Shown: positions 1,848 to 24,552 of the stretch, in pieces
Layout of the letters: each line of letters begins with the position of its first letter
Numbering within the stretch: position 1 is the stretch's first letter
DNA from: Chitinophagaceae bacterium
GTDB taxonomy: Bacteria > Bacteroidota > Bacteroidia > Chitinophagales > Chitinophagaceae
NCBI GenBank assembly: GCA_014879545.1
Contig: JACSRV010000103.1
Span: 1 to 46,062 of the forward strand
Length of the DNA stretch: 46,062 nucleotides
Reading direction: 5' to 3'
Notes under the pieces: generated by a model
Database searches by the model: none
Seen by the model: the letters and a program-made list of their open reading frames with translations, nothing else
What the model was told of the DNA's origin: nothing
Program-made: the position numbers and the translations under genes

Positions 1848-1919
1848 ATCTTTTCGTTTTGTGGGTTAGTGATTTTGTTGTGTTATTAGTTGTGAGTTAA
1901 TGTATGTTTTTAGGATGTT

Positions 1920-3326: not shown

Positions 3327-3356
3327 ACTGCATTTATATTTTTGTTCGGTTAGTAT

Positions 3357-4769
3357 TTAATGCCCGGAAGGATAGAGATACTTGCCGGCCTTATTATCTT
3401 TTTTATTTTCTTTTTTATTTTCTTTTTTGTTCTCCTTCTTTACCTTGCTTTTGTCTTTCTTTTTTGTTGCTTCCTTTCCTTTATCACCCCTTTTACCTGC
3501 TTTAGACGCCGGCTTTTTCGGAGCAGTCTTCGAGTGCGGCTTTGCCGCCGGATGGGCTGAATTACCTTTCACCGACTTCTTTGCTGCGCTACTACTCTTC
3601 GCCGCCTTCTTCACATCTTTTTTCAATTCAGGGGCAACATGTTTCACCGCCTTCTTAGCATTCCTGTCAACTGCGTTTTGTTGAGTTGGTTTCCGCACAT
3701 TCTTCACGGAAGAGCCCACTGCAGACGCACCTGCCTTCACCGGAGCTGATTGCTTTGCCGACTTCTTCTTTTCCAGCTCGCGATCTCTGGCAGCTTTTGC
3801 TGCAGCGACAGCCTCTTCATACTTCTTTTGCGCCCTTTCGGCTGCAGCCGCTTTTGCAGCAGCCACGGCAGCCTGATGGTTCACCTCAGCACGAACTGAA
3901 TCTTCATGACGTTTCTGCGCTTCCGTTACTTCAATGCTGGTTATCCAGTTCATCTTGCTGATGGCCTTATCTACAGGTCCCTTGTAAGGAAGAGACGGGG
4001 AGGCGATCACCTGGTCCTGAAAACGCACATCCAATGTCTGATACTTATCCCAGCCAATTCGATTCAGCACGTTCTTATAGAATGCCATTACATTCGCGAA
4101 CTTCTCTGAAAGACGACTCGTATCTCCCAGCAATATCTTCTGTTCCCCTATCACAGGTGTCAGTTCAAACATTCCTGCCGAATCGATAGCGATCTGTGAA
4201 ACCTGCGCGCTCCAGAAACTATCGGTATTTATAAAACGTGCAAGCCGCACTATCTGCTTCTTCATTCCTATACCCGCACTGTCATTACCAAGTTGGGGTA
4301 CATTTGTAACAACGTTTGTGTAGTAGGTATAGTCGTCAGACAATGGCATAGTATGTAACGTACTATCGATATAGTAACTCACGCCATCGGCTCTGAACAA
4401 ACGGGCAACAGGTACGCGCCTTGTCACCTCTATATGCATTACCCTCTCAATATCAATATACACCTGCGCGTTCTGCACCCACGGATCAGTCTCAATAGCC
4501 CGCTCTATACCACGCACATCAAGCTTTGACACCGGAGTGTGCAGTATGTCTATATTTCTTTTATAGATAGCGAGATCCATTATCTTTTTCTGCTCCAGAG
4601 AGTGATACTTTCTGTCGTTACTGATACCGACCACCGGCAACTTACGCAATGGCTTTTCACCTTCCACTGTCGAAGCGCTTACCATGGCTATGACACACCC
4701 GGTTGCGCCCACTATCGTGAGCAGCAACTGGAGTATCTTCCGCACTGATATTTTACGCTTCTCTGCCAC
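3357..4769 (-). CDS. ftsQ: Cell division protein FtsQ with long Lys/Ala-rich C-terminal tail
   Basis: FtsQ is the bitopic divisome protein that in other bacteria binds FtsL/FtsB and links early and late division proteins. The start is GTG at 4769, directly after the murC stop; it gives a short basic cytoplasmic N-terminus and one membrane helix (about 11-31). The next internal Met lies past the helix. A POTRA-like segment follows (about 70-125, with DPWVQNAQVYIDIERV), then the FtsQ beta domain to about residue 270. Residues 283-470 form an Ala/Glu/Lys coiled-coil-like stretch and then a Lys/Ala/Pro-rich, histone-H1-like tail ending in KENK/KDNK repeats. By topology this ~188-residue polycation faces the periplasm. 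FtsQ is usually 250-300 aa, so the tail is the oddity. The identification is supported by position between murC and ftsA. Confidence 0.9.
   Translation of the reverse strand: MAEKRKISVRKILQLLLTIVGATGCVIAMVSASTVEGEKPLRKLPVVGISNDRKYHSLEQKKIMDLAIYKRNIDILHTPVSKLDVRGIERAIETDPWVQNAQVYIDIERVMHIEVTRRVPVARLFRADGVSYYIDSTLHTMPLSDDYTYYTNVVTNVPQLGNDSAGIGMKKQIVRLARFINTDSFWSAQVSQIAIDSAGMFELTPVIGEQKILLGDTSRLSEKFANVMAFYKNVLNRIGWDKYQTLDVRFQDQVIASPSLPYKGPVDKAISKMNWITSIEVTEAQKRHEDSVRAEVNHQAAVAAAKAAAAERAQKKYEEAVAAAKAARDRELEKKKSAKQSAPVKAGASAVGSSVKNVRKPTQQNAVDRNAKKAVKHVAPELKKDVKKAAKSSSAAKKSVKGNSAHPAAKPHSKTAPKKPASKAGKRGDKGKEATKKKDKSKVKKENKKENKKENKKDNKAGKYLYPSGH
3397..3432. repeat. 12-bp tandem repeat inside the ftsQ tail
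   Basis: Two exact copies of TCTTTTTTATTT (3397-3408 and 3409-3420) are followed by a third with two differences (3421-3432). Read on the minus strand they encode the repeated KENK/KDNK tetrapeptides near the FtsQ C-terminus. Twelve bases equals four codons, so copy-number changes would keep the frame. Confidence 0.9.
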
Positions 4770-6128
4770 TTATTTGTTCTCCAATATTTGTTTAATCGGT
4801 CCTGTCAATTTATCAATATCGCCTGCACCCGCCGTAATGAACAGATCCAGTGGCGCAACTTTTACAAACTCAAGCAATCCTTCTTTCGACAAAATTGTAT
4901 TTGCCGAATTGCACATTCTCGTAGTGATGGTCTCCGATGTCACCCCCTCCATAGGCAGTTCACGTGCCGGGTAGATATCGAGCAAGATCACCTCATCGGC
5001 CAGATCCAGACTGCGTGCAAAACCATCGGCCAGGTCACGTGTACGGCTGAACAGGTGCGGCTGAAACGCCACAACACACCTACGGCCGGGGAACAGCCTC
5101 TTGGCACTCTTTATCAATGCTGCAAGCTCTTCGGGATGGTGCGCATAGTCGTCAATGTAAACCACCTTCTCCGTGCGCACCAGATACTCGAACCTGCGCT
5201 TTATGCCTTTGAACTGCGCTAATGCCTCACGAACCCTGCCTCCATCAATTCCCAACATTTGCGTAACTGCAATGGCTGCAATTGAATTCTCTACATTGTG
5301 CATCCCTCCAATGTTCAGCACCATATTTTCCAACTTCCAGTCAGCAGCCACTACGTCAAAAATGTAGCCGCCGTTGTTCAGTCTTATGTTATCAGCATAT
5401 ATATCTGCAGCATCGTTCTGCAGGCTGTAGGTAACCGTTTTAGGACCCTTCAGTTCGGCAGACCGATGCAGACCATGCTTCACCAGCAATGTGCCGCCCG
5501 GCTTGATATTCCTGGCATATGAAATGAAAGCCTCCTCCATTTCAGCCGGCGTTCCGTATATATCCAGATGATCAGGATCGATAGACGTAAGCACTGCCAG
5601 ATCCGGACTCAACTTCAGGAAACTGCGGTCATACTCATCTGCCTCTATCACTGCAGTATCATTGTCACTGCTCCAGTAGTTGCTTTCATAATTTACAGAT
5701 ATACCACCCAGAAAAGCATTACATCCATATCCGGTCTCACGCAGCAGGTAGGCAGTTGTGGTAGAGATCGTAGTCTTGCCATGTGTACCCGCCACAGTTA
5801 TGGCATACATCGCCTCTGTGATCCATTTAAGCGCATCGCTACGTTTGTACACAGGATAATTATTGTCCCTGAACCAATTCAATTCTGAATGGTCTTTCGG
5901 TATAGCGGGTGTATAGATCACCAGTTCAGCATCCTTGCGCAGCAGTGCAACATCGTCAGTGTAGTGTATCTGCATACCCTCCGCAGCAAGGCGGCGTGTA
6001 AGGTCCGTCTCGGTGCGGTCATAGCCGCAAACAGTGGCGCCGCGGCCCATAAAGAACCTTGCGAGCGCACTCATACCGATGCCGCCGATACCCACAAAAT
6101 AAACGTTCCTGATGTTCCTTACATCCAT
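4770..6128 (-). CDS. murC: UDP-N-acetylmuramate--L-alanine ligase
   Basis: MurC is the cytoplasmic ligase that adds L-alanine to UDP-MurNAc using ATP, the first amino acid of the peptidoglycan stem peptide. The N-terminal Rossmann-like UDP-binding motif is FVGIGGIGMSALARFF (about 11-26). The ATP-binding loop of the Mur ligase family is AGTHGKTT, near residue 114. The family motif DEYDRSFLKL follows near 170. The C-terminal ligase domain contains DDYAHHPEELAAL, characteristic of MurC, and FQPHLFSRT. The length (452 aa) is normal. It lies 13 nt after murG, and its stop codon abuts the ftsQ GTG start, consistent with one polycistronic transcript. Confidence 0.97.
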   Translation of the reverse strand: MDVRNIRNVYFVGIGGIGMSALARFFMGRGATVCGYDRTETDLTRRLAAEGMQIHYTDDVALLRKDAELVIYTPAIPKDHSELNWFRDNNYPVYKRSDALKWITEAMYAITVAGTHGKTTISTTTAYLLRETGYGCNAFLGGISVNYESNYWSSDNDTAVIEADEYDRSFLKLSPDLAVLTSIDPDHLDIYGTPAEMEEAFISYARNIKPGGTLLVKHGLHRSAELKGPKTVTYSLQNDAADIYADNIRLNNGGYIFDVVAADWKLENMVLNIGGMHNVENSIAAIAVTQMLGIDGGRVREALAQFKGIKRRFEYLVRTEKVVYIDDYAHHPEELAALIKSAKRLFPGRRCVVAFQPHLFSRTRDLADGFARSLDLADEVILLDIYPARELPMEGVTSETITTRMCNSANTILSKEGLLEFVKVAPLDLFITAGAGDIDKLTGPIKQILENK

Positions 6129-6141
6129 TTTCTACTTCTTT

Positions 6142-7248
6142 CTATCTGTTAGCTTTTGCTATTTCAATCACTTTTGCCGCAATTCGCTCGTCTGCATCCC
6201 TGATGGCAACTCTGCTCAAATTTGCAGTCATCTCCTGTTGCACGGAATTATTATTCATCAGCTCCTTCAACTTGCCCACCAATACGCTGTTCACCTCACT
6301 GTCTTTCACCATCCACGCCGCGTTATTGTTTACTAATGCCATGGCATTACTCTCCTGATGATTTTCGGCAGCATGCGGATAGGGAACAAATATCACCGGC
6401 TTGCCGGCTATGCACAGTTCCGCTATTGCCAGTGCTCCCGCCCTGGAGATGACTACATCAGTTGCTGCATAGGCGTAATCCATATCTGCAATGAAATCAC
6501 GCACAACTACTTTATCACCAAACATAGCGGCTGCCGCGCAGGCTTGCTCGTAATAGGGCTTGCCTGTCTGCCACAACAACTGCACCTGCTCACTTACTAT
6601 ATTGGCAAGACCGGCCTCAACCGCCTCGTTCACGGAACGGGCACCAAGGCTACCTCCTATCACCAACACCGTCTTTCGCCCCTCCTTCAGCCCAAACTTT
6701 GCACGCCCCTCGGCCGACGAGCGGTTCATATCAGCGATTGCTTTCCGAACCGGATTACCCGTCAGCTGCAGCACTCCGGCCGGAAAGAAACGCTCCATGC
6801 CGGAGTAGGCTACACATATCGCCTTCGCATTCTTGCCCAGTATCTTGTTACTTTTTCCTGCCCACGAATTCTGCTCCTGTATCAAAGTAGGAATACCTGC
6901 AGCTTGCCCCGCATGCAGGATAGGGAAGCTGGCATAACCGCCAACGCCCACTATTGCCGTAGGTGCAAACTCCTTTATGATACTCCTTGCCTGCATTCTG
7001 CTTTTTAATAATTTTAGTGGTAGCGTTATGTTCTTCCACATATTGCTCCTATTGAACCCCGCTATGTCCAACCCTACTATTTCAAATCCCTCCCGCGGGA
7101 CTTTCTCCATTTCCATCTTACCCTTGGCGCCTACAAACAACAGGCGAGTACCCGGCGCCAGACGCTGTAACGCGTGCCCTATGGCCACCGCAGGGAATAT
7201 ATGTCCCCCGGTACCACCACCTGCTATTATGACACGCATCTCACTCAT
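6142..7248 (-). CDS. murG: UDP-GlcNAc:lipid I N-acetylglucosaminyltransferase
   Basis: MurG transfers GlcNAc to lipid I to make lipid II on the inner face of the cytoplasmic membrane. It is a GT-B fold enzyme of family GT28. The N-terminal glycine-rich loop IAGGGTGGHIFPAVAIG (about 8-24) is the MurG signature. The middle region has GVGGYASFP and QEQNSWAGKSNK (acceptor side). The C-terminal donor domain contains GGSLGAR, SRAGALAIAEL and PYPHAAENHQESNA, the UDP-GlcNAc site. The length (368 aa) is standard. It sits between ftsW (14 nt upstream) and murC (13 nt downstream). The start is ATG at 7248; another Met at codon 4 is possible. Confidence 0.97.
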   Translation of the reverse strand: MSEMRVIIAGGGTGGHIFPAVAIGHALQRLAPGTRLLFVGAKGKMEMEKVPREGFEIVGLDIAGFNRSNMWKNITLPLKLLKSRMQARSIIKEFAPTAIVGVGGYASFPILHAGQAAGIPTLIQEQNSWAGKSNKILGKNAKAICVAYSGMERFFPAGVLQLTGNPVRKAIADMNRSSAEGRAKFGLKEGRKTVLVIGGSLGARSVNEAVEAGLANIVSEQVQLLWQTGKPYYEQACAAAAMFGDKVVVRDFIADMDYAYAATDVVISRAGALAIAELCIAGKPVIFVPYPHAAENHQESNAMALVNNNAAWMVKDSEVNSVLVGKLKELMNNNSVQQEMTANLSRVAIRDADERIAAKVIEIAKANR

Positions 7249-7262
7249 TTATCTTACTCTGT

Positions 7263-8522
7263 CTATTTCGTTTTCTTACCCTTTAATGCAGCAACTGCCA
7301 CCTCTTCCGAGGCCGCTTCGGCCTCAGCTTCGGCCGCCGCAACTGCCGCTAGCCTCGCCGCATTCTTCCGCTCACCTTCCATTTCATCCACATACTTACT
7401 CACGCTCAACACAATACCTATAGCTATACTGGTAAACCATATTGACGATCCACCCATGCTGATCATAGGCAACGTGAGACCAGTTACAGGCACCAGGTGC
7501 ACATTCACTGCCATGTTCAACATAGCCTGAAACACAAGCGTCACACTGAGTCCCACTGCCAGAAACGCGCCGAATGCAAACGGACATCGTTTGAATATGA
7601 GTACACTTCGCCATAAGAACAGCAAGTACAACAGCACTACGAAGGTTCCCCCGAGCAACCCGTATTCCTCTATGATGATTGCGAAGATGAAATCAGAATA
7701 AGGATGTGGCAGGAAGTTCTTCTGCAGACTCTTGCCAGGTCCACGCCCGGTAAGGCCGCCATTCGCGATCGCGATCTTTGCCTGCTCTACCTGATAGACA
7801 TCCTGGTGTTTGCTGTTCTTATCCTCTTCTTTAAAAAAGTCCTTCACCCTGCGCTCCCATGTAGCAGCACGACCCACACCTGTAAGTTTGGAGATCGTAA
7901 ACACTACACTCAGGCACATAAAACCTGCTACTGCCAAAAACACGAGGTGCTTCAATTGAACTCTGCCGATAAAGAACATGATGGCGCAAGTGGCACCCAG
8001 CATCAACGCGGTAGACAAGTTCGCCGGTGCTATCAAGGCACAGGTAAGCAACATGGGTACCAACACAGGTATAAAACCCTTCCTGAAATCCTTGATCACG
8101 TCCTGCTTTATAGTAAGCATACGCGCCAAAAACATGAACAATGCCAACTTGGCAAGATCCGATGTCTGGAAAGTGAGATTAATTACCGGCAACTTTATCC
8201 AACGAGATCCCTCATTCAGACTGGTACCAAACATCAATGTATATATCAACAGCGGCAGCGATCCCAGGTACATATAAACCGACCATTTCGCAAACCTTGT
8301 ATAATTGATTCGGTGCACATAATAAACAATAAGCAGACCGAGCCCTAATACCATTACCTGTTTAGCCAGATAGTATCCTGAGTTTTTCTCCATGCGATAA
8401 GCAAGAGAACCTGTGGAGCTATACACCGCAAGCAGGCTGATAAAGGAAAGCACAAGCACGACGCCCCAAATTACTTTGTCGCCCTTCGTTCTTGTCAGTA
8501 TTTGCTTCATTCCGTCAGCCAT
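7263..8522 (-). CDS. ftsW: Peptidoglycan polymerase FtsW (SEDS family)
   Basis: FtsW is the SEDS-family glycosyltransferase that polymerises lipid II at the septum with its partner transpeptidase FtsI. The protein has about ten hydrophobic segments. SEDS landmarks are visible: STGSLAYRMEKNSGYY in the first loop, EGSRWIKLPVINLTFQTSDLAKLALF, and the C-terminal PVTGLTLPMISMGGSS. ftsI is in the same operon. After the last membrane segment (about residue 380) there is an Ala/Glu-rich cytoplasmic tail of about 35 residues ending LKGKKTK, longer than in many homologues. RodA is the main alternative, but the dcw location favours FtsW. The start is ATG at 8522. Confidence 0.95.
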   Translation of the reverse strand: MADGMKQILTRTKGDKVIWGVVLVLSFISLLAVYSSTGSLAYRMEKNSGYYLAKQVMVLGLGLLIVYYVHRINYTRFAKWSVYMYLGSLPLLIYTLMFGTSLNEGSRWIKLPVINLTFQTSDLAKLALFMFLARMLTIKQDVIKDFRKGFIPVLVPMLLTCALIAPANLSTALMLGATCAIMFFIGRVQLKHLVFLAVAGFMCLSVVFTISKLTGVGRAATWERRVKDFFKEEDKNSKHQDVYQVEQAKIAIANGGLTGRGPGKSLQKNFLPHPYSDFIFAIIIEEYGLLGGTFVVLLYLLFLWRSVLIFKRCPFAFGAFLAVGLSVTLVFQAMLNMAVNVHLVPVTGLTLPMISMGGSSIWFTSIAIGIVLSVSKYVDEMEGERKNAARLAAVAAAEAEAEAASEEVAVAALKGKKTK

Positions 8523-8560
8523 GACTATTGTTTAACTGTGCCTTTCCCTGAATAATAATA

Positions 8561-9916
8561 TTAAAGGCTCCTGACAGCTTCTTTAAATTGCTCTCCGCGA
8601 TCTTCAAAATTGTTGAACCTGTCAAAGCTTGCACAAGCAGGTGCCAGCAACACTACATCACCGGCCTCAGCGCAAGAATAAGCAGCATGTACTGCCTCTG
8701 CAGCGCCTGCTGTTTCGATAATAGTATCCACCATCGAATCAAAGGCATCATAGATCGGCTGGTTGTTTACACCCAGACAGATAATCGCCTTCACCTTCTT
8801 CTTCACCAGATCCATTATCTCGCTGTAGTCGTTACCCTTGTCCTGACCACCCAGAATAAGGATGGTCGGCTTGTCCATGCTTTCCAACGCAAACCATACC
8901 GAGTTTACGTTGGTCGCCTTGCTGTCGTTGATGAAATCAACACCACGAACGGTTGCAACATATTCCAGCCTGTGCTCCAGTCCCTTGAACCTTGTGAACG
9001 TCTCTCGTAATTTCTCCTTCCTTATGCCTGCAATGCGGGCGGATATGCCGGCTGCCATACTGTTATATTGATTGTGTTTTCCTTTGATAGCCAGGTCGTG
9101 AATGGACATATCAAAGTAGTCACCACCATACAATATGCGCATATTGTCGTCGTTGATGAATCCTCCTTCTTGGCCTGTAACGTTATCGCTCATTGTGAAA
9201 TAAATTGTAGTAGCGTGAATAGAATGGGTAGTAAAATATTGTTGTATTGCTTGGTCGTCTTTGTTTATTATGAAGTAGTCGTCTTTCGTCTGGTTGAGTG
9301 TGATTCGAAACTTTGAGGCAACGTAATTCTCAAACTTGTAGTCATACCGGTCCAGATGATCGGGGGTGATGTTGAGCAGTATCCCTATGTCTGGTCGGAA
9401 CTGGTGTATATCGTCCAACTGGAAACTGCTGATCTCCATCACATACCATGCACAAGGGCGTTCTGCAATCTGACGAGCAAAGCTGTATCCAATGTTGCCA
9501 ACGAGGGCCACATCATAGCCGGCATCTTTGAATAGGGTATAGGTGAGCATAGTTGTGGTGCTCTTACCATTGCTGCCCGTTATCGCCACTATCCTGCTAT
9601 CGCCTTTGTATCGGTATCCGAATTCTATCTCGCTGCATACTTCTATGCCGGCTGCCCTCACCTTCTTCATGATGGCCGTCTTATCGCTGATTCCCGGGCT
9701 CTTCACGAGACAGTCCGCATTCAGTACCAGATCTTCAGTATGTGCAGCCTCTTCAAACGGTATAGCATGGGCTTCAAGCGTCTCTCTGAACTTTGGTTTG
9801 ATCTTTCCACCATCGCTCACAAACACATCCCATCCCTGCTGCTTGCCAAGCAATGCAGCCCCTACACCGCTTTCAGCGGCGCCGAGTATGACAAGACGTT
9901 TTGAAATTGTGCTCAT
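8561..9916 (-). CDS. murD: UDP-N-acetylmuramoylalanine--D-glutamate ligase
   Basis: MurD adds D-glutamate to UDP-MurNAc-L-Ala in the cytoplasm, using ATP. The N-terminal UDP-binding start VILGAAESGVGAALLG (about 9-24), the Mur ligase ATP loop AITGSNGKSTTTML (near 112), the LNITPDHLDRY motif and the C-terminal NDSKATNVNSVWFALES (the MurD-type NDSKATN motif) are all visible. The length (451 aa) is typical. It is 4 nt from the mraY stop and 38 nt before ftsW. The start is ATG at 9916. Confidence 0.97.
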   Translation of the reverse strand: MSTISKRLVILGAAESGVGAALLGKQQGWDVFVSDGGKIKPKFRETLEAHAIPFEEAAHTEDLVLNADCLVKSPGISDKTAIMKKVRAAGIEVCSEIEFGYRYKGDSRIVAITGSNGKSTTTMLTYTLFKDAGYDVALVGNIGYSFARQIAERPCAWYVMEISSFQLDDIHQFRPDIGILLNITPDHLDRYDYKFENYVASKFRITLNQTKDDYFIINKDDQAIQQYFTTHSIHATTIYFTMSDNVTGQEGGFINDDNMRILYGGDYFDMSIHDLAIKGKHNQYNSMAAGISARIAGIRKEKLRETFTRFKGLEHRLEYVATVRGVDFINDSKATNVNSVWFALESMDKPTILILGGQDKGNDYSEIMDLVKKKVKAIICLGVNNQPIYDAFDSMVDTIIETAGAAEAVHAAYSCAEAGDVVLLAPACASFDRFNNFEDRGEQFKEAVRSL

Positions 9917-9920
9917 TTCT

Positions 9921-11192
9921 TTACTGCAGCTTTAATGTTACTATACTCATAATGGCAAGCATAATGCCCACTATCCAGAACCTCGTTACGATCTTCGCTT
10001 CGTGATAACCCTTCTTCTGATAATGATGGTGAAGGGGCGACATCAGGAAAATGCGTCGGCCTTCGCCATACTTTTTCTTCGTCCGCTTGAAATACCACAC
10101 CTGTAATATCACCGATAGGTTCTCGACCAGAAAGACACCACAAATAATAGGTATCAACAATTCCTTCCTCACAATGATGGCAAGTGATGCAATGATACCT
10201 CCCAACGCCAGGCTACCGGTGTCGCCCATGAACACCTGAGCAGGATATGCGTTGTACCAAAGAAAACCAACGCAGGCACCCACAAACGCACCTATGAATA
10301 TCGACAACTCGCCAAGGTTGGGTATGTCCATAATGCCCAGATAACCCGCAAACACATAGTTACCTGACACATATGCGAACACACCCAGACACACACCTAT
10401 GATTGCCGATACCCCTGTTGCCAGGCCGTCTATCCCATCGGTAAGATTGGCACCGTTGGAAACGGCCGTGATAATGAAGATCACAAACAGTATGTATATA
10501 AGCGGAGTGGTCCACTCTACATTCTTCTCACCGAATATCCTCGCTATCTTTTCATACCTGAACTCGTGCGACTTCAAAAAAGGTATCGTAGTCGTGGCTG
10601 TGCGCACTTTAACATATGTGTGTTCGCGCCCCTTATCATCTTTACGCACATAACGTGCGTTATCCGCTTTCTCCGTAACACTATAAACACCTTCCTGGCC
10701 ACGGGTCACCTCACGGCTGATCACCACATTGTCGTTATAATACATGGTAACACCCACAATAATACCAAGCCCTATCTGCCCCATTATCTTAAAGCGGCCG
10801 GCCAGCCCTTCCTTGTTCTTCTTGAACACCTTGATGTAATCATCCAGAAATCCTACTATCCCCAACCACACGGTTGAAACGATCATAAGCAGAATATACA
10901 CGTTCAGCACTCGCGCGAAAAGCAACGTAGGGATGAGAATAGACGCAAGAATAATGATACCACCCATTGTAGGCGTACCCTTCTTTTGTTGCTCACCGGC
11001 AAGACCCAGGTCGCGCACGGTCTCACCTATCTGCTTACGACGCAGAAAATCTATCAGTCGCTTGCCGAACACCATAGATATCGTGAGCGACAGGATGATT
11101 GCCATTGCAGCCCTGAATGTGATGTAATTGAACACACCCGCCCCCGAAAGGTGGAACGTATCGCGCAGGTATGTAAACAAATAGTACAGCAT
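9921..11192 (-). CDS. mraY: Phospho-MurNAc-pentapeptide transferase MraY
   Basis: MraY is the integral membrane enzyme that transfers phospho-MurNAc-pentapeptide to undecaprenyl phosphate, giving lipid I. Conserved motifs include KKGTPTMGG (71-79), [17 protein letters not shown] (114-130, with the Asp pair of the active site), [15 protein letters not shown] (246-260), [10 protein letters not shown] and a C-terminal [10 protein letters not shown]. At 423 aa it is longer than the ~360 aa of E. coli. The extra length is mainly a soluble insert at about residues 153-225 between two membrane segments, rich in charged residues. I associate this insert with Bacteroidota homologues, from memory. The start is ATG at 11192, 8 nt past the murE stop. 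Confidence 0.97.
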
Positions 11193-11200
11193 GCTGCCTG

Positions 11201-12667
11201 TTATTTATTGAGTGTTTCGAATATTTCTGTTAAAACCTCTTTGTCGTCAAAATGGTGCTTCACACCTTTTATCTCCTGATAATTCTCATGCCCCTTTCCT
11301 GCCACCAGTATCACGTCGCCCGGCTGTGCAAGTGAACATGCCACTTTTATCGCCTCGCGCCTGTCGGTTATCCGCAACGATTTGCGCTTTTGCACACCGG
11401 TCAGTCCGGCTTCCATATCGTTCAGTATCGCTTCAGGGTCTTCGCTTCGCGGATTGTCTGATGTAAGTACGGCCTTGTCACTGTGCTCACATGCTACTTG
11501 TGCCATTACAGGACGTTTTGTAGTATCTCTGTCTCCGCCGCATCCAACTACCGTGATCAACTGCTGACCATTTGTCCGCAACTGGTTGATGGTTGCCAGT
11601 ACATTGATCAGCGCGTCAGGCGTATGTGCGTAGTCCACTATTCCGAGGATCTTGTCATTAGTAGAAACCAATGTCTCAAAACGACCCGGCGCGCCGTGCA
11701 GTCCGCTCAGTACTGCCAAAATCTGCACCGGATTTTCGCCCAGCAACTTCGCTGCACCATATACCGCAAGGAGATTGTACGCATTGAATGTGCCGATCAT
11801 CCTGAAATGAGCCTCATGTCCATCTACTGTCATCACCAGCCCCGACAGATTGTTCTCGAGCACCTTTCCCTTCACATCGGCCGGTGCCCTCAAACTGTAA
11901 GTAAATCTGCGTGCGTCGGTGTTCTGCAGCATCACCATTCCTCGCTTATCATCAATGTTCGTGAGCGCGAATGCACCTTCGGGCAATCCGTCAAAGAACA
12001 TCTTCTTCACTCTGATATACTCATCAAACGTTTTGTGATAATCAAGGTGGTCATGTGTGATATTAGTAAAAAGTCCACCTGCAAAATCAATACCTGCTAT
12101 CCTATGTTGATGTACCGCATGCGAACTCACCTCCATAAAGGCATAAGTACATCCTGCATCTGCCATACGCCTCAGCAACGCATGCACCGAAACCGGATCA
12201 GGCGTGGTATGCGTTGAAGCGACCACCTCGGTGTGTATATGATTCTTCACCGTAGATAACAGTCCGCACTTATGGCCCATAGCCTCAAACAACTGATACA
12301 GCAATGTCGCAGTGGTGGTCTTACCATTGGTTCCTGTTACTCCTACCACTTTCATCTGGCGCGATGGCTGACCATAAAAGATATCCGCCATCAACCCTGT
12401 TGCGGCAGCACTGTCTCTAACAAGCACATACGCCACTCCCTCCACCCTTACTTCCGGCATACGCTGGCATACTACTGCGGCAGCACCCAGACTTATTGCC
12501 TTGTCAATGAAGTTGTGACCATCTACTGTGGTACCTGCTACTGCTACAAAAACGCTACCTTGCTGCACGGCCCTGGAGTCGATGCAGATACCGGAGACGG
12601 CAACAGAGGTATCTCCGTGCACCGCTACAGCCTGTATGGGTATCAATATGTCGCGCAGTAATATCAT
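11201..12667 (-). CDS. murE: UDP-MurNAc-tripeptide synthetase, probably meso-DAP-adding
   Basis: MurE adds the third residue of the stem peptide in the cytoplasm, using ATP. The ATP-binding loop is [16 protein letters not shown] (109-124). The motif [19 protein letters not shown] is typical of MurE. The C-terminal DNPRSEDP is the substrate-recognition motif associated with meso-diaminopimelate enzymes rather than L-lysine enzymes, so the wall is expected to contain meso-DAP. The length (488 aa) is normal. The start codon overlaps the ftsI stop by one base (TAATG), suggesting translational coupling. murF is not present here; in this lineage it probably lies elsewhere. Confidence 0.97.
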
Positions 12668-14781
12668 TAACTCAATTGAAGTATTATATCTTGTCCTTTT
12701 ATTAACCTTGTTCCTGTTGGCACCGACTGTGCCTGCACCCTTCCTTTACCCACAACACGCACACGCAATCCGTAATTCTCCAGCATGTATACGGCATCCT
12801 TCAGCTTCATTCCGGTCACATCAGGCATCACGCCTCTGTACACATGCCTTGGCACCACCTCGCTACGCCTGTTAGAATCGGTCACCAGTTGCATCATCGT
12901 GTTCCGGTAGTCAGCTACCACCGGCATTTTTTTGCTCAGTCTGCCCAGCAACACATCGTACGTCGCGGCAGTTGCCGCTTTGGCAGGTATAACTGACGAA
13001 CCGGTTAACGCCATGCTGTCCAACGGTGCCGACCATGCGCCCATGTTCTGTGAGAATATCTTGTCAGCAACCATCCTGAATACAGGAGCTGCAATGGTAC
13101 CCCCATAATAGGCCGCGGAATGCGCCTTTGTGCGTATCACTACACATATAGTGTACTTAGGGTTTTCAAAAGGCATGTAGCCCACATATGAACCCTGATA
13201 TACACCGTCCGTATACCTTATTCCTTTGTCTGCCACCTGCGCAGTACCTGTCTTACCTGCCATTGTATAGTATGGCGACTCAATTCCCTTCCCTGTGCCA
13301 TCTGTCACAACCGCACGTGTACACTTGCGAAGCTGCTCGATAGCCGCACTATCACAAATTGTCGTCAGCACCTCAGGCTCAAAAGTCTGCACATCGCGGC
13401 CATACTCCCTGATAGCACTCACTAGGTACGGACGCATCATTTTGCCGTAGTTGGCCACCGCATTATACATCATGCAGGTATGCAACGGGGTTATCATTAC
13501 ACCATATCCGGTAGCCATCCACGGCAATGTTGTTCCGCTCCATAGCGTACTCTTCGGGTCTGTGATAAAAGACCTGCGCTCGCCCAGCAGGTCGATACCT
13601 GTTGGCTTGTCAAGGCGCAGTTTCCTCAAATGTTCCACAAACTTCGATGGGTTATCACGGTAATGTATTTCTGCCAGCTTCGCCATACCCACGTTGCTCG
13701 ATATCGCGTACGCCTTCCAGATCGGCATCTCGCCCAGGCGCGCATCAGGGTGCGAATCCTGCATCACGCGGTTGCCAAACTGCCTGCGTCCACCCTGAAT
13801 GTCTACCGTCTGATCTACATTGATCTTCTTGTCGGACAATAATGAAATCAGGGTAGCCAACTTGAAGGTCGACCCCGGCTCTGTTGGTATGGTCGCATAG
13901 TTGAAATCTTCATCGTAGCTACCGTCCTTCTGCCGGCCCAGGTTCACGAGAGTCCTTATTTTCCCGGTTGCCACTTCCATCACTATACACGTGCCGTACT
14001 GGCATTCATACTCCTGCAGCTTGCTTAGCAACGCGTGATACGCAACGTTCTGCACGTTCATGTCCAGAGTAGTGATCACGTCCTTGCCATTCTGCGGATC
14101 TACTTCGCTACCCTCCACCGGCACCCATACACTACCTGTAGCCTTCTGCACTACCCTGCGTCCGTTCTCGCCCTTAAGTTGCTTATTGTACTTCGCTTCC
14201 AGTCCGGTTATGTTACTATCTCTGAAAACACCTATAGTCCTGCGTGCCAGTTTTTCATAAGGCAGCTTGCGCTTTTCACGGGGTTCAGCAATAAAACCTC
14301 CGTAGGCCTTGCCCTTGTTGAATATCGGGAAGCTACGGAGTGCCTCATACTCATAGTACTTCAGCTTGCGCGACAGCAGATAATATTTGTTCCTGTTGTC
14401 GTAAGCATTTACGAATTCTTCTTTAAACTGTTCAGCTGTCTTTCCGCTTGCTGGGAACAGAGCCGCCAGACATGTACACAACGTATCTATCTTCTGCTCA
14501 AACAGCGTTGAGTCTATCACAGAGAAATCAATGTGCACATCAAACTCCGGAATAGATGAACTTAATAATATCCCGTCCTCATTCAGAATGTTGCCGCGCT
14601 CAGCTATCAGCGTATCAAAACGGGTGTGCATCTCGCGGGCCATCGACCTCAGGCGCGGGCCTTCCTTAGCCTGTATCAGAAAGGCCTTCACAACAACAGC
14701 ACAGCCGAACAGGAATATACACGTAAACGTGATATATACCCTGAAACGGATATCGCTCTTTATGTTATCGGTAGCACTCAT
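12667..14781 (-). CDS. ftsI: Division transpeptidase FtsI (PBP3-like) with PASTA domain
   Basis: FtsI is the class B penicillin-binding protein that cross-links septal peptidoglycan with FtsW. It has one N-terminal membrane helix (about 15-35), a PBP dimerisation domain with RGNILNEDG (62-70), and a transpeptidase domain with the three active-site motifs: STFK with nucleophile Ser304, SSN at 361-363 and KTGT at 510-513. Residues about 650-704 form one C-terminal PASTA domain (MPDVTGMKLKDAVYMLENYG). This fusion is absent from E. coli FtsI but known from Gram-positive class B PBPs (SpoVD and PBP2x types). The length of 704 aa fits that architecture. It lies 3 nt after the ftsL-like gene. Confidence 0.96.
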   Translation of the reverse strand: MSATDNIKSDIRFRVYITFTCIFLFGCAVVVKAFLIQAKEGPRLRSMAREMHTRFDTLIAERGNILNEDGILLSSSIPEFDVHIDFSVIDSTLFEQKIDTLCTCLAALFPASGKTAEQFKEEFVNAYDNRNKYYLLSRKLKYYEYEALRSFPIFNKGKAYGGFIAEPREKRKLPYEKLARRTIGVFRDSNITGLEAKYNKQLKGENGRRVVQKATGSVWVPVEGSEVDPQNGKDVITTLDMNVQNVAYHALLSKLQEYECQYGTCIVMEVATGKIRTLVNLGRQKDGSYDEDFNYATIPTEPGSTFKLATLISLLSDKKINVDQTVDIQGGRRQFGNRVMQDSHPDARLGEMPIWKAYAISSNVGMAKLAEIHYRDNPSKFVEHLRKLRLDKPTGIDLLGERRSFITDPKSTLWSGTTLPWMATGYGVMITPLHTCMMYNAVANYGKMMRPYLVSAIREYGRDVQTFEPEVLTTICDSAAIEQLRKCTRAVVTDGTGKGIESPYYTMAGKTGTAQVADKGIRYTDGVYQGSYVGYMPFENPKYTICVVIRTKAHSAAYYGGTIAAPVFRMVADKIFSQNMGAWSAPLDSMALTGSSVIPAKAATAATYDVLLGRLSKKMPVVADYRNTMMQLVTDSNRRSEVVPRHVYRGVMPDVTGMKLKDAVYMLENYGLRVRVVGKGRVQAQSVPTGTRLIKGQDIILQLS

Positions 14782-14784
14782 TAC

Positions 14785-15141
14785 TTACTTTCCCTTTATC
14801 TTATAAGCCGGCAGTAAAGACGGTTTCAATCCTACTTTCTCAGCGTTGGTCATCACCTGTGTCTCAGTCTTCACATACATCAGCTGCGATTTCACATCCA
14901 TGTACTTCCAACGCAGTTCCTTCAGCTCCCGGTTACGGGCGTTCAGCTCGCGCTGCATATCTATCGCCCGCTGACTGTTGCTTATGTACAATACACACAG
15001 CAATACCAGGAATGCCAGAAAAGGAATATTATTTACGATTGCCTTATAAGATACTTTCTCCACCAGCGACTTCCAGTCACTCCGCACACGTTGCGCAGGC
15101 GTAAGCCCCTCCTGCGTTATTTCTTTTTCCTCGCTGCTCAT
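14785..15141 (-). CDS. FtsL-like bitopic division protein
   Basis: This 118-aa protein has a charged cytoplasmic N-terminus, one membrane helix (about 36-54) and a periplasmic heptad-like region (57-95, rich in Arg, Glu, Leu). This is the layout of FtsL, which pairs with FtsB-type coils and bridges FtsQ to FtsWI. Sequence conservation of FtsL is low in all phyla, so the call rests on topology and on position between rsmH and ftsI, the standard ftsL slot. The start is ATG at 15141, 48 nt from the end of rsmH. Confidence 0.8.
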   Translation of the reverse strand: MSSEEKEITQEGLTPAQRVRSDWKSLVEKVSYKAIVNNIPFLAFLVLLCVLYISNSQRAIDMQRELNARNRELKELRWKYMDVKSQLMYVKTETQVMTNAEKVGLKPSLLPAYKIKGK

Positions 15142-15189
15142 GCTCGCTATATTATCAGTCCCCGAAGGGCATTTTTATTCAACTTTTCT

Positions 15190-16092
15190 TTACAACTTCT
15201 CTCCTACCCTCAACCTTGCACTCCGCGATCTCGGGTTTGCTCGTTGCTCTGCATCACTTGACTCTATCGGCTTCGCGTTCACCGGCTTCATCACGGGTGG
15301 TGCCACTTCCTCATAAGCGCCCGGTTCATCCCAGCGGCCCCGCTTAATAAAGTGCTTCACTATCCTGTCTTCCAGCGAGTGAAACGAGATGATACTCAGG
15401 CGCCCTCCCGGCTTCAGACTCTGCGCTGCCTGCAACAGCAACTCCTTCAGCACACCCAACTCATCGTTCACTTCTATCCTCAGCGCCTGAAACACCTGCG
15501 CCAGGTACTTATTTGGATTCCCCTTCATCACCGGCGCCAGCATTGCTTTCAGCGATGCTATTGTCTGCACCTTTTGCACACTTCTCGCCGACACTATATG
15601 CTTTGCCAGCTGCCTCGAATTGCGCACCTCTCCATATTGCTCAAACAACTGGTGCAGCTGCGGCTCCGAATAGGTATTCACAATGTGCGCTGCTGTTAGC
15701 TCACCGCGCTTATCCATCCTCATATCCAACGGACCGTCAAACCTTATTGAAAAGCCTCGCTCTGCCGTGTCAAACTGAAAAGAACTTACGCCCAGATCCG
15801 CCAATATCCCATCCACCTCATTATGTCCGTGCAATCGCAAAAAACGACGCAGATACTTAAAATTTTCTGTTACCGGTATCAACCTTTCATCATCCGGCTT
15901 GTTCACCCAAGCATCAGCGTCCTGGTCAAATGCTATCAGTTTCCCTTCAGGCCCCAGCTGTTCCAATATCAGCCTGCTATGTCCTCCCCCTCCGAATGTC
16001 GCATCCACATAAACACCATCTTTCTTTATCGCCAACCCCTCCACTGCTTCATGCAGCAACACTGTGGTATGATAGAATTTTTGCTCTTCCAT
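15190..16092 (-). CDS. rsmH: 16S rRNA (cytosine-1402-N4)-methyltransferase
   Basis: RsmH (MraW) methylates N4 of C1402 in 16S rRNA, in the decoding centre, using S-adenosylmethionine. Motifs present are HTTVLLHEAVEGL at the N-terminus, the SAM-binding DATFGGGGHSRLILEQL, FDQDADAW, ADLGVSSFQFD and the C-terminal SFHSLEDRIVKHF, all typical of the family. I place the start at ATG 16092 (MEEQKFYHTTVLL, 300 aa). A further-upstream TTG at 16107 would overlap the end of mraZ and adds nothing conserved. From this ATG the gap to the mraZ stop is one base. Confidence 0.96.
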   Translation of the reverse strand: MEEQKFYHTTVLLHEAVEGLAIKKDGVYVDATFGGGGHSRLILEQLGPEGKLIAFDQDADAWVNKPDDERLIPVTENFKYLRRFLRLHGHNEVDGILADLGVSSFQFDTAERGFSIRFDGPLDMRMDKRGELTAAHIVNTYSEPQLHQLFEQYGEVRNSRQLAKHIVSARSVQKVQTIASLKAMLAPVMKGNPNKYLAQVFQALRIEVNDELGVLKELLLQAAQSLKPGGRLSIISFHSLEDRIVKHFIKRGRWDEPGAYEEVAPPVMKPVNAKPIESSDAEQRANPRSRSARLRVGEKL

Positions 16093-16093
16093 A

Positions 16094-16561
16094 CTACATG
16101 CCGTCAAAAGGGTTACCCAGATCTGCAGCTACACTGTTGGCAAGGTCACCGAAGTTTTCAGAATTATGTCGCAGATACGCATAATAGCTATCTTTGTCCC
16201 ACAACTCCATTTTATTGCCCTGCGCGGTCAACACAGCTTCCTTCGTTATCCCGGCATACTCCAGTAGTGGCTTGGGCACCAGCATCCTTCCGGCGCTGTC
16301 CAGTTCCACTATTGTTGCTCCGTTCAGAAACAAACGTTTGAACCTGCGCACATCTTCCTTGAAGTCATTCAACTTGCTCACTTTGTCGTGGATCACATTC
16401 CACACATCCATCGTGTACACATTGATACATTTCTCAAATCCACGATTGATCACAAATTTCTCACGCAGACCCTCGGGGATCTGCTTCTCCAGGCGCGCAG
16501 GCAGCATCAAACGCCCCTTGGCGTCTACTGCTACTTCACTTTCTCCGAGAAAATTGGTCAT
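16094..16561 (-). CDS. mraZ: Transcriptional regulator MraZ
   Basis: MraZ is the AbrB/SpoVT-like DNA-binding protein that heads dcw operons and, in studied species, regulates its own promoter. Two tandem half-domains are visible, each with the DxxGR core: DAKGRLMLPARL (from residue 13) and DSAGRMLVPKPLLEY (from residue 88). I place the start at ATG 16561, giving 155 aa beginning MTNFLGESEV, the usual family start. A further-upstream codon at 16603 would extend into the repeat operator. Phased GTGGT repeats lie 35-59 nt upstream of this ATG. Confidence 0.95.
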   Translation of the reverse strand: MTNFLGESEVAVDAKGRLMLPARLEKQIPEGLREKFVINRGFEKCINVYTMDVWNVIHDKVSKLNDFKEDVRRFKRLFLNGATIVELDSAGRMLVPKPLLEYAGITKEAVLTAQGNKMELWDKDSYYAYLRHNSENFGDLANSVAADLGNPFDGM

Positions 16562-16595
16562 GAGTGTGTTTGATGGATGATTACTAACACAAAGA

Positions 16596-16620
16596 AACAC
16601 CATTTACCACATTTTACCAC
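16596..16620 (-). promoter_or_regulatory. Putative MraZ operator (10-bp phased repeats)
   Basis: Read on the minus strand, GTGGTAAAAT, GTGGTAAATG and the weaker GTGTT follow each other at exact 10-bp spacing, ending 35 nt upstream of the mraZ ATG. MraZ proteins are known to bind short G-rich direct repeats (TGGG/GTGG-type) at 10-bp spacing in front of their own operon, so an autoregulatory site is the simplest reading. A clear TAnnTTTG box was not found here, so the promoter itself is unplaced. Confidence 0.7.
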
Positions 16621-16638
16621 TTTTGTAGCACTACATAT

Positions 16639-16703
16639 TTATCCACAATATGATATAAAATCCTGTGAATAACCTGTGACTTTATGTGGATATCTGTGCA
16701 TAA
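16639..16703. promoter_or_regulatory. Cluster of DnaA boxes between mraZ and purL
   Basis: Within 65 bp there are three exact matches to TTATNCACA: TTATCCACA on the plus strand at 16639-16647, TTATTCACA on the minus strand at 16664-16672, and TTATGCACA on the minus strand at 16695-16703. A one-mismatch copy, ATATCCACA, lies on the minus strand at 16685-16693. A degenerate copy (AAAGTCACA, minus, 16675-16683) makes the minus-strand series spaced 11, 10 and 10 bp. AT-rich tracts flank it (16631-16660 and 16721-16745). This could be a DnaA-controlled promoter region for the dcw operon and/or purL, or part of a replication origin. dnaA is not in the window. Confidence 0.65.
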
Positions 16704-16849
16704 CCTCAGCACGGCGCATTGCATAAAAATTTTCAATACTTTATCGTCCTCAGTTGGCTCAAACCAAAGCAAATACCTGAGGTCGAAACATTATTCTGTT
16801 CATATAATGTTACCCGAGAAAATTTGCCTCAAAATTGTACTTTTACGCC

Positions 16850-19057
16850 ATGTTAGCCACACTCGAACAGGCCGTGAAATTGGGCCTTCGCGAAGACGAA
16901 TTCGAAAAGATCAAACAGATACTGGGACGTACACCCAATTTTACTGAAACAGCAATGTACTCCGTAATGTGGAGCGAACACTGCAGCTACAAAAACTCCA
17001 TCAAGTGGCTGAAAACACTGCCGCGCGATGGCGCTAAACTACTCGTAAAAGCAGGTGAAGAAAACGCCGGCCTTGTGGATATTGGCGATGGTTGGGGTTG
17101 CGTATTCAAAATAGAAAGCCATAACCACCCGTCTGCTATCGAACCATTTCAGGGCGCAGCAACCGGTGTTGGTGGCATCCACCGCGACATTTTCACCATG
17201 GGAGCCCGCCCGATAGCGTCACTCAACTCACTTCGCTTCGGCAAGGTCGATAACCCCAAAACACGCTGGCTCATCAAGGGCGTAGTGAAGGGTATCGGAC
17301 ACTACGGCAATTGCTTCGGCGTGCCAACTGTGGCGGGAGAAGTGTACTACGAAAGTTGCTACCAGACCAATCCTCTGGTAAATGCCATGAGCGTTGGCGT
17401 TGTCCGCGTTGGACAGACAGTGTCTGCCACATCCCACGGCGAGGGAAATCCCGTATATATCGTTGGTGCATCTACCGGCAAGGATGGTATCGGCGGAGCT
17501 TCATTTGCATCTGCAGATATCACTGAGAACAGTGCTGAATCACTGCCTGCTGTACAGGTAGGAGACCCGTTTGAAGAAAAGAAACTGCTCGAGGCATGCC
17601 TCGAAATGATACCTACAGGTGCCCTCATAGGCATGCAGGACATGGGTGCAGCGGGTATCACCTGCAGCACCAGCGAAATGAGTGCGAAAGGTGAACATGG
17701 TATGGTCATTCACCTGGACAAGGTACCAACGCGTCAGGCCAACATGAAGCCTTGGGAAATGCTGCTGAGCGAGAGCCAGGAGCGTATGCTGATAGTAGTA
17801 AAGAAAGGCCGCGAAGCTGAAGTTCAGAAGATATTCGACAAATGGGACATCCACTGTGTTCAGATTGGCGAAGTGACCAAAGATACCAACCTGAAATACT
17901 ACATGAACGGCGAACTCGTTGCTGACGTTCCTGCCGAAAGCCTTGTACTGGGCGGTGGTGCACCGGTTTACGAAAGAGAATACAGTGAGCCCAAGTACTT
18001 CCAGGAGATCAACAATTTCAATCCTGATTCCGTTGCTGTCCCTGCCGATCTGCGCGACACGGCATACCAGCTGATCCAACTCCCCAACATCGCTTCCAAG
18101 CGTTGGATCTATGAGCAGTACGATAGCATGGTGGGCACTGGCAACACACAAACAAACGAACCGAGCGACGCGTCTGTTATCCGCGTTCATGGCTCAGATA
18201 AAGGACTTGCTGTAACGACAGATTGTAACAGTCGTTATGTTTTTGCCGACCCATATAAAGGTGGCATGATCGCGGTGTGCGAAGCAGCCCGCAACATTGT
18301 GTGCAGTGGCGCTCAGCCGGTTGCTATCACCAACTGTCTCAACTTCGGCAACCCATACAATCCTGAGGTTTATTATCAGTTCGTTTATGCCATCAAGGGC
18401 ATGGGCGATGCGTGTCGCAAGCTCGATACACCTGTTACCGGCGGTAACGTCAGCTTCTACAACCAGAGCGAAGATGGTCCGGTATATCCAACCCCGACTA
18501 TTGGTATGGTTGGCGTTATGGACTCTTTGTCTCAAAAAATGTCCCTCGGCTTCAAACACGCAGGCGACACAATCTATCTGTTGGGTGTGCAGACCAATGA
18601 TATCAACTGTTCAGAATACCTGCACCACATCGTGGGTGTTACGCACAGCCCTGCTCCGCATTTCGAACTCGAAGAGGAATATACCCTGCAGCAGACAGTT
18701 TCACGCGTTATCAGCGAAAAACTCATCCGCTCCGCACACGACATTTCTGAAGGTGGTCTGTTCGCTTGTTTGCTGGAAAGCAGCATGGCAGGCGGGCTTG
18801 GATTTACAATAAATACACCTGCTGGCATCCGAAAAGACGCAGCGCTCTTCGGCGAAGGACAGAGCCGTGTTGTTGTCACTGTTAACCCCGACCTGCACGC
18901 ACTGTTCGAAGCAGAACTGAAAGGCCTTCCATTCATCAAGATCGGACATGTAAATGCAGGAAAAGAATTGATGGTTGACGGTGAGAATTGGGGCTACATC
19001 GCCGACTGGCAAAACGCATACGATACGTCACTCGAACGTATGCTGGCTGGTCAGTAA
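16850..19057 (+). CDS. purL: Phosphoribosylformylglycinamidine synthase subunit PurL
   Basis: PurL catalyses the ATP-dependent conversion of FGAR to FGAM in purine synthesis. At 735 aa it is the small form, which needs separate PurQ (glutaminase) and PurS subunits; neither is in the window. Visible motifs include ILGRTPNFTE and WSEHCSYKNS near the N-terminus, HNHPSAIEPFQGAATGVGG with IHRDIFTMGA just after, MQDMGAAGITCSTSEM and HDISEGGLFACLLES. The first and second halves repeat the AIRS-type fold. I chose ATG 16850 over an in-frame TTG at 16835 because family members begin a few residues before the conserved helix. It is divergent from the dcw operon; its promoter was not clearly located. Confidence 0.96.
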   Translation: MLATLEQAVKLGLREDEFEKIKQILGRTPNFTETAMYSVMWSEHCSYKNSIKWLKTLPRDGAKLLVKAGEENAGLVDIGDGWGCVFKIESHNHPSAIEPFQGAATGVGGIHRDIFTMGARPIASLNSLRFGKVDNPKTRWLIKGVVKGIGHYGNCFGVPTVAGEVYYESCYQTNPLVNAMSVGVVRVGQTVSATSHGEGNPVYIVGASTGKDGIGGASFASADITENSAESLPAVQVGDPFEEKKLLEACLEMIPTGALIGMQDMGAAGITCSTSEMSAKGEHGMVIHLDKVPTRQANMKPWEMLLSESQERMLIVVKKGREAEVQKIFDKWDIHCVQIGEVTKDTNLKYYMNGELVADVPAESLVLGGGAPVYEREYSEPKYFQEINNFNPDSVAVPADLRDTAYQLIQLPNIASKRWIYEQYDSMVGTGNTQTNEPSDASVIRVHGSDKGLAVTTDCNSRYVFADPYKGGMIAVCEAARNIVCSGAQPVAITNCLNFGNPYNPEVYYQFVYAIKGMGDACRKLDTPVTGGNVSFYNQSEDGPVYPTPTIGMVGVMDSLSQKMSLGFKHAGDTIYLLGVQTNDINCSEYLHHIVGVTHSPAPHFELEEEYTLQQTVSRVISEKLIRSAHDISEGGLFACLLESSMAGGLGFTINTPAGIRKDAALFGEGQSRVVVTVNPDLHALFEAELKGLPFIKIGHVNAGKELMVDGENWGYIADWQNAYDTSLERMLAGQ

Positions 19058-24446: not shown

Positions 24447-24552
24447 ATTCAATGGGTTGTGAAACTACATGCAAGATATAATAATGTATTGAATAATGAT
24501 CACTATATTTCCTAATCATTTGTTATTGAAAGAAAACGCCGATGTCAGTAAA

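Follow-up and report, generated by a model that had tools for sequence, protein, structure and literature searches.

Compact clusters of DnaA boxes that lie outside oriC are exemplified by datA and DARS of Escherichia coli, which are DnaA-control loci and not promoter elements. According to PMC8203912, DnaA was found by chromatin immunoprecipitation (ChIP) to be bound in vivo to the ftsL promoter region of Bacillus subtilis, the ftsZ and gcrA promoters of Caulobacter crescentus are DnaA-dependent, and the DnaA boxes upstream of ftsZ in E. coli later proved to have no role in ftsZ transcription. According to PMC11019786, replication arrest in B. subtilis brought no apparent change in RsmH and PbpB, which are encoded together with ftsL. 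An initial annotation of the locus described below had cited as precedent a DnaA-responsive mraZ-ftsL operon in Bacillus; the ChIP result bears this out in part, for DnaA at the ftsL promoter region, while the E. coli ftsZ and B. subtilis RsmH/PbpB results are counted here against DnaA regulation. As for MraZ, its site in Mollicutes is given as (AAAGTGKN3)3 in PMC5282649, and LexA is described in PMC3998124 as binding in vitro to an mraZ homologue from gut metagenomes. No report of DnaA boxes upstream of mraZ in Bacteroidota appeared in titles or abstract openings among the matches listed in our literature search, which covered few subscription papers, and the names ftsL and mraZ had no match in PMC4447404. 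Here, we describe a DnaA-box cluster from Chitinophagaceae that, with a probability of about three in four, serves the mraZ/dcw promoter as a DnaA-binding regulatory element beside a predicted MraZ operator, a reading drawn from the sequence and from its comparison with relatives.

The DnaA-box cluster upstream of mraZ

The window, i.e., the whole 46,062-bp stretch of DNA analysed, contains the dcw operon, the cluster, and a divergent neighbour in the following arrangement.

117..16107, minus strand: remainder of the dcw operon (rsmH, an ftsL-like gene, PBP/ftsI, murE, mraY, murD, ftsW, murG, murC, a 470-aa open reading frame, ftsA, and ftsZ)
16094..16561, minus strand: mraZ, gene 1 of the dcw operon (Pfam MraZ, 2e-31)
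16588..16623, minus strand: predicted MraZ operator, four GTGK repeats with an exact 10-bp period, overlapping the promoter
16590..16597, minus strand: -7-like promoter element TTTCTTTG of the Bacteroidota type, overlapped by the predicted MraZ operator
16639..16647, plus strand: inverted DnaA box TTATCCACA, exact (TGTGGATAA in the mraZ sense), the element most constant in place
16664..16672, minus strand: DnaA box TTATTCACA, exact, the array member nearest mraZ
16675..16683, minus strand: degenerate repeat AAAGTCACA, in helical phase with the array boxes, possibly a weak array site
16685..16693, minus strand: DnaA box ATATCCACA, one mismatch, array member number 2
16695..16703, minus strand: DnaA box TTATGCACA, exact, the array member most distant from mraZ
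16850..19057, plus strand: purL, the divergent neighbour, which starts at 16850 and lies outside the element

The start of mraZ is at 16561, and the N-terminus of its product can be aligned with family homologues; the Mur ligases of the operon were told apart by gene order, in part presumptively. The 470-aa open reading frame in the murC-ftsA interval (window 3357-4769, minus strand) is without a Pfam match and occupies what we take, from the usual gene order, to be the place of ftsQ. Elsewhere in the window, positions 22518-24452 of the minus strand encode a 644-aa protein in which MORN repeats, with ten stretches matched, are unusually combined with ankyrin repeats. The GTGK repeats upstream of mraZ are located at 16620, 16610, 16600, and 16590, and at least three such repeats with a 10-bp period was what we used to define an MraZ operator. 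The -7-like element was assigned with TAnnTTTG, which we take to be the -7 promoter consensus of Bacteroidota; from the transcription start that this element predicts, the centre of the inverted box would be approximately 60 bp upstream.

A motif scan of the window confirmed the number and spread of boxes that the initial annotation had claimed, as three exact copies of TTATNCACA (16639-16647, plus strand; 16664-16672 and 16695-16703, minus strand) and a one-mismatch box all lie within 65 bp, 78-142 bp upstream of the mraZ ATG, and these three are the only exact copies in the entire window. When up to one mismatch was allowed, 43 boxes were counted in the window versus 47.75 expected; since there is no window-wide enrichment, it is the clustering alone that is unusual. 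When the intergenic stretch 16604-16834 was shuffled 20,000 times with its dinucleotide content preserved, no shuffle contained three exact boxes, and the maximum of two was reached in 13. The phasing of the minus-strand boxes at about one helical turn, also claimed earlier, was upheld by their offsets of 10 and 21 bp, with the weak repeat AAAGTCACA filling the gap to give CACA steps of 10, 10, and 11 bp, and so was the AT-rich setting, with a GC content of 35% in the intergenic stretch as compared to approximately 48% in its surroundings. Folding of the intergenic strand as DNA gave a z score of -1.95, with 6 of 200 shuffles equally good.

We extended the scan to the window's own assembly, G000 (3.48 Mb, 250 contigs, 87.5% complete), in which exact boxes numbered 184, versus 95 matches of the backwards control pattern. 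Pairs of TTWTNCACA separated by a gap of at most 25 bp were searched in direct, convergent, and divergent orientations; the cluster upstream of mraZ supplied the sole direct and the sole convergent pair of G000, and no divergent pair with this gap was found in the assembly. By an arithmetic estimate, random scatter of 184 boxes would produce about 8e-4 such triplets per genome. The DnaA protein of this organism possesses all three Pfam DnaA domains, including the C-terminal helix-turn-helix.

Conservation of the boxes with mraZ in Chitinophagaceae

MraZ searches yielded 117 family genomes and 80 named loci, and mraZ upstream regions were taken from 79 of the 117 genomes (30 + 40 + 9). The top named match was a Flavipsychrobacter metagenome-assembled genome (MAG) with 96% identity, followed by a Taibaiella MAG, both Chitinophagaceae according to NCBI taxonomy. 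Removal of 2 loci with less than 260 nt upstream and 9 duplicates from 110 family loci left 99 distinct regions; the initial 30 and all 80 named loci were top-ranking MraZ matches, which biases them to close relatives, and the results agreed with those of 50 further regions, 40 of them drawn from weaker MraZ matches. Region counts are not independent events, as members of the family are akin. As controls, we used 10,211 half-overlapping windows of the named loci.

Among the observations that the initial annotation had named as speaking against it were a lack of conservation in relatives and a similar box density elsewhere, and neither of these two was made. Exact boxes occurred at 1.14 per 260 nt in the 99 regions, compared to 0.026 in their own shuffles, 0.0177 in the control windows, and 0.0162 in the 2,033 control windows with at least 60% AT, with at least two exact boxes present in 27 of the 99 regions and in none of the 10,211 controls; for the combined 149 distinct regions, the value was 1.12 per 260 nt, 41 regions having no exact box. 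In an unbiased count of the 13,669 4N4 patterns observed in the distal part, TTATNCACA ranked first, being found in 91 of the 149 regions, and it was strand-specific there, as the reverse form was seen in 1 region and the backwards control in 12.

Relatives also retain the boxes in position, strand, and helical phase. The inverted box, TGTGNRWAA, was present at -110 to -70 in 93 of the 99 family regions and absent in 6, and it was present at -130 to -60 in 41 of the 50 further regions. Of the regions in which its distance to the first MraZ repeat was measurable, 78 of 89 in the first set and 36 of 40 in the second had a value of 26 or 36 nt, and TTAtTTTG is the consensus at the -7 position in the 78 regions of the 36-nt type. 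Upstream of the inverted box sits the same-strand array, in steps of mostly 10-11 bp; forward boxes, scored with a relaxed pattern, were found in 95 of the 99 regions (spacings mostly 10, 11, 21, and 32 bp) and in 42 of the 50, none of which lacked both elements. Both elements were missing from their usual places in 2 of the 99 (L023 and L124). Among 84 distinct architectures, the spacing between the inverted box and the forward box nearest to it was phased, with R of 0.55 at 10.5 bp (99.9% null, 0.30) and 0.65 at 11 bp (99.9% null, 0.29); a test of all boxes gave R of 0.66 (null, 0.22) and counts the members of one array as if they were independent, which makes the nearest-box test the fairer of the two. 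Relative to L088, the lineage of the window is without approximately 68 bp of spacer, placing its array and inverted box out of their usual mutual phase, and because of this change the two modules may act separately. In several relatives (L249, L012, and L013), the spacer between array and inverted box holds a palindrome such as CTTTACAGTAAAG, with a terminator-like stem in L249; this type of palindrome is missing from the shortened spacer of the window.

Both repeat types upstream of mraZ share a GTG core and a period of about one helical turn, and MraZ-type repeats adjoin the array, so one may ask if the distal repeats could be read as an MraZ operator in inverted orientation, with TGTG every 10-11 bp on the other strand, in which case MraZ alone would explain everything. 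The inverted box itself, TGTGGAWAA, includes GTGG, with C at position 5 in 97%. Several observations on the array point elsewhere: it is the full TTATNCACA that tops the distal pattern count, TTMCCAC occurs in 6 of the 99 regions, the array steps are 10 or 11 bp and not strictly 10, and the element adjacent to the operator in class-level relatives is often TTATYAACA, which is without GTG. Because array boxes were picked at no more than one mismatch, position 5 is the sole unbiased position measure, and it is free in the array (C,.46; T,.29; A,.13; G,.13); G or T follows GTG in 59% of the array boxes, which do not conform to the GTGK rule. Based on the pattern counts and the free position 5, the MraZ-only explanation of the array was rejected, and we regard it as very unlikely.

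The gene beside the cluster varies. Among the 104 loci for which 800 nt or more upstream of mraZ was available, purL is there in three (the window, L087, and L088), and no purL match was found upstream of mraZ in the other 101, nearly all of which have boxes; since the boxes are kept where purL is absent, the cluster belongs with mraZ. Hence, in this family the boxes hold a conserved, fixed place and remain with mraZ despite a changed neighbour, both of which we looked for in a DnaA-regulated promoter. These properties also bear on the possibility that the cluster is chiefly a DnaA sink or reset site, similar to datA or DARS, that came to lie at mraZ by chance. A compact array of several boxes kept across the family would suit such a site, and titration is compatible with the data, but a sink need not be phase-locked to the MraZ operator of a promoter, nor need it stay with mraZ where purL is absent, and this alternative is, in our estimate, improbable. 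The proposal of the initial annotation that DnaA acts on the division operon is supported in part: the conserved position, strand, and phase of the boxes and the dispensability of purL favour it, and the action of DnaA itself is predicted.

The likely replication origin and the putative factor at the array

According to the other proposal of the initial annotation, the cluster would be part of oriC. If the cluster were oriC or part of it, DnaA would assemble on the array and open the adjoining AT-rich DNA. The locus does combine several phased boxes and an inverted box with an AT-rich gap and diverging genes, and it holds the sole close box pair found in G000; the origin of G000 itself cannot be placed, as a protein search did not find mnmG in this assembly (250 contigs, 87.5% complete). 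GC skew was sampled coarsely in seven complete relatives, each represented by ten stretches of 20 kb, with mnmG placed by ORF-size synteny with G017 in G112, by NCBIfam in G017, and by protein search in the others. In the detrended curves, the distance from the skew minimum to mraZ, as a fraction of the genome, was 0.40 in G053, 0.26 in G109, 0.22 in G115, 0.17 in G021, 0.10 in G017, 0.08 in G103, and 0.02 in G112, as compared to distances to mnmG of 0.00-0.04 in six relatives and 0.12 in G112, and distances to dnaA of 0.17-0.45 in the seven. Thus, the minimum was away from mraZ in five of the seven relatives by the detrended curve and in four by the raw curve, and those five (G053, G115, G109, G021, and G017), in which it fell at mnmG (0.00-0.02) and 0.10-0.40 from mraZ, all carry mraZ boxes.

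Not every genome agreed. The detrended minimum of G112 was closer to mraZ than to mnmG, the raw minimum of G021 fell at a contig end near mraZ, and G103, a single contig with one end 1,356 bp upstream of mraZ, has its minimum 0.08 of the genome from mraZ and within 0.00-0.04 of mnmG at this coarse sampling, which favours neither gene. Ten stretches of G091, which is not a single contig, gave no clear minimum. Within the window, negative skew was measured to either side of the cluster (-0.175 and -0.065). When 300-bp box clusters were scored, a score of at least 7 was reached in 11 of 18 mnmG regions versus 1 of 80 other 20-kb stretches, and G017 carries a separate dense cluster beside nadA, approximately 2 kb from mnmG (L168), inside the skew interval. 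The mnmG-region clusters (L296-L313) lie up to approximately 10 kb from mnmG, that of G094, which belongs to the same genus as the window's organism, approximately 4 kb away (L296); no convincing 300-bp box cluster was seen in 7 of the 18 regions. By the sampled, detrended skew of the seven complete genomes, an origin at mraZ was rejected for most relatives, G112 being contrary. The cluster is probably not the origin, and we consider that alternative extremely improbable. Because five complete relatives carry mraZ boxes away from the skew minimum, DnaA-box clusters taken by themselves can lead origin prediction astray in genomes of this kind.

The array boxes were also compared with 61 putative origin boxes. 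Both sets were picked at no more than one mismatch to the same consensus, so their TTAT/CACA likeness is partly built in. At position 6, 22% of the array boxes have A (TTATNAACA), versus 0 of the 61 putative origin boxes; the two sets are therefore not identical, and a claim that their profiles are the same was dropped, given the shared selection consensus and this difference. Since the site is short and TTATNAACA variants are common in the array while absent among the putative origin boxes, another transcription factor with a DnaA-like site could be thought to bind the repeats. The commonest distal pattern, however, equals the DnaA box, and exact boxes are frequent in this family upstream of the replication gene dnaB as well, with 22 located within 420 nt in 19 of 29 Chitinophagaceae loci (L325-L353; L354, an additional dnaB-like match from one of the genomes, was left out of this count). 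No exact box was found upstream of dnaB in the window's genome (L332) or in G094 (L334). We judge such an unnamed factor highly unlikely.

For DnaA regulation of the mraZ/dcw promoter, the following model is consistent with the architecture. The inverted TTATCCACA box, with its centre ~60 bp before the predicted transcription start, would be one target of DnaA, which would also occupy the same-strand, helically phased array farther upstream. There it would work next to MraZ, whose predicted operator, with its 10-bp period, covers the core promoter, so that the level or ATP state of DnaA, acting in concert with MraZ autoregulation, might set how strongly the division and cell-wall operon is transcribed. 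We infer DnaA binding, MraZ binding of the GTGK repeats, and the transcriptional response alike. As to the sign of this response, our guess is that activation, or relief of MraZ repression, fits somewhat better than repression, with a small share left to neither, because the site is upstream, does not overlap, and is placed one whole helical turn apart in two classes (26 and 36 nt).

Class-level relatives and comparison with described systems

The class-level set comprised 23 loci, 2 of which were left out for lack of a recognisable operator; the class covering these families is presumably GTDB Bacteroidia. In these relatives the array is absent, but the MraZ repeats are often accompanied by a single DnaA-like box in a constant position. 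This box is a forward TTATYAACA or TTATCCACA located upstream of the repeats by 11 nt in 10 of 12 loci of family f5, by 21 nt in both loci of f4, and by 22 nt in the single locus of f6; families f5 and f4 appear to be Flavobacteriaceae-like. In f3, an inverted box, TGTGGAAAA, lies 16 nt upstream in three of four loci, and a variant lies 14 nt upstream in the fourth. The TTATYAACA variant was chosen after viewing the sequences, and shuffles expect 0.94 of 12 for f5 and 0.27 of 4 for f3. Beside the MraZ repeats of the single f2 and f8 loci, no DnaA-like box was found. Across the wider phylum, sampled with one region per family outside f1, an exact box was present in 1 of 20 mraZ upstream regions.

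Other candidate DnaA targets were seen in the same searches. Candidate clusters found elsewhere have as neighbours nadA/mnmG, dnaB, smc, the gene for a ribonucleotide reductase, or genes without an evident link. One convergent DnaA-box pair (L174:8753-8786 and L175:9499-9532, congeneric) is found upstream of a 1,177-aa gene, which is smc in L174 and was matched by size in L175, and another, tight convergent pair (L169:9497-9517 and L170:9168-9188, congeneric) has a GGGP synthase-like gene on one side and a B12-dependent ribonucleotide reductase gene on the other, the genes being identified in L169 and matched by ORF sizes in L170. Upstream of dnaA, 1 exact box was found in 16 loci (L032-L046 and L001), one of which is without upstream sequence. 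At the class level, DnaA-like boxes lie just upstream of dnaB in three genomes (L317, L318, and L324), and are exact in two. Genomes of f5 have TTATYAACA pairs beside dnaB and a hup-like gene, with TTATCCACA once in one of the two places; the two boxes upstream of a 90-91-aa gene are 20 bp apart (L316:4037-4065, L319:3925-3953, and L320:3768-3796), this gene being HU-like in L316 and assigned by size and place alone in L319 and L320.

On a broader reading of these sites, the division operon across a class of Bacteroidota would be governed by a single composite, helically phased promoter switch of DnaA and MraZ, as part of a wider DnaA regulon (dnaB in Chitinophagaceae; hup, smc, and the ribonucleotide reductase gene in some lineages) that would wire initiation to the supply of division proteins. 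Its forms would be the inverted TTWTCCACA at 26 or 36 nt plus the array in Chitinophagaceae, an inverted box at 16 nt in f3, and a forward box at 11 or 21-22 nt in f4-f6. We hold this broader reading tentatively, at somewhat less than even odds.

DnaA control of division genes is known elsewhere, and it is the DnaA-MraZ architecture that appears to be new here. Because relatives keep the DnaA sites in much the same places, the data suggest a link between replication and division at the level of gene control, and the retention of the array at the dcw promoter by nearly all family members examined, in register with the predicted MraZ operator, makes this a case in Bacteroidota that can be put to the test. 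As with B. subtilis ftsL, DnaA sites, here putative and recognised from their letters, lie at a division-gene promoter; unlike at ftsL, they form a strand-oriented, phased array with an inverted box whose position is linked to that of a predicted MraZ operator, an arrangement kept across a Bacteroidota family. DnaA is proposed in C. crescentus, as it is here, to be a transcription factor that joins replication to division genes, whereas the sites at this locus precede the entire mraZ-ftsZ operon. The compactness of the cluster recalls datA and DARS of E. coli, from which the array differs in being position-locked to mraZ. Finally, the GTGK repeats with a 10-bp period before mraZ, at 16588-16623, match the Mollicutes MraZ operator, but here, separate boxes of the DnaA type lie upstream of the repeats.
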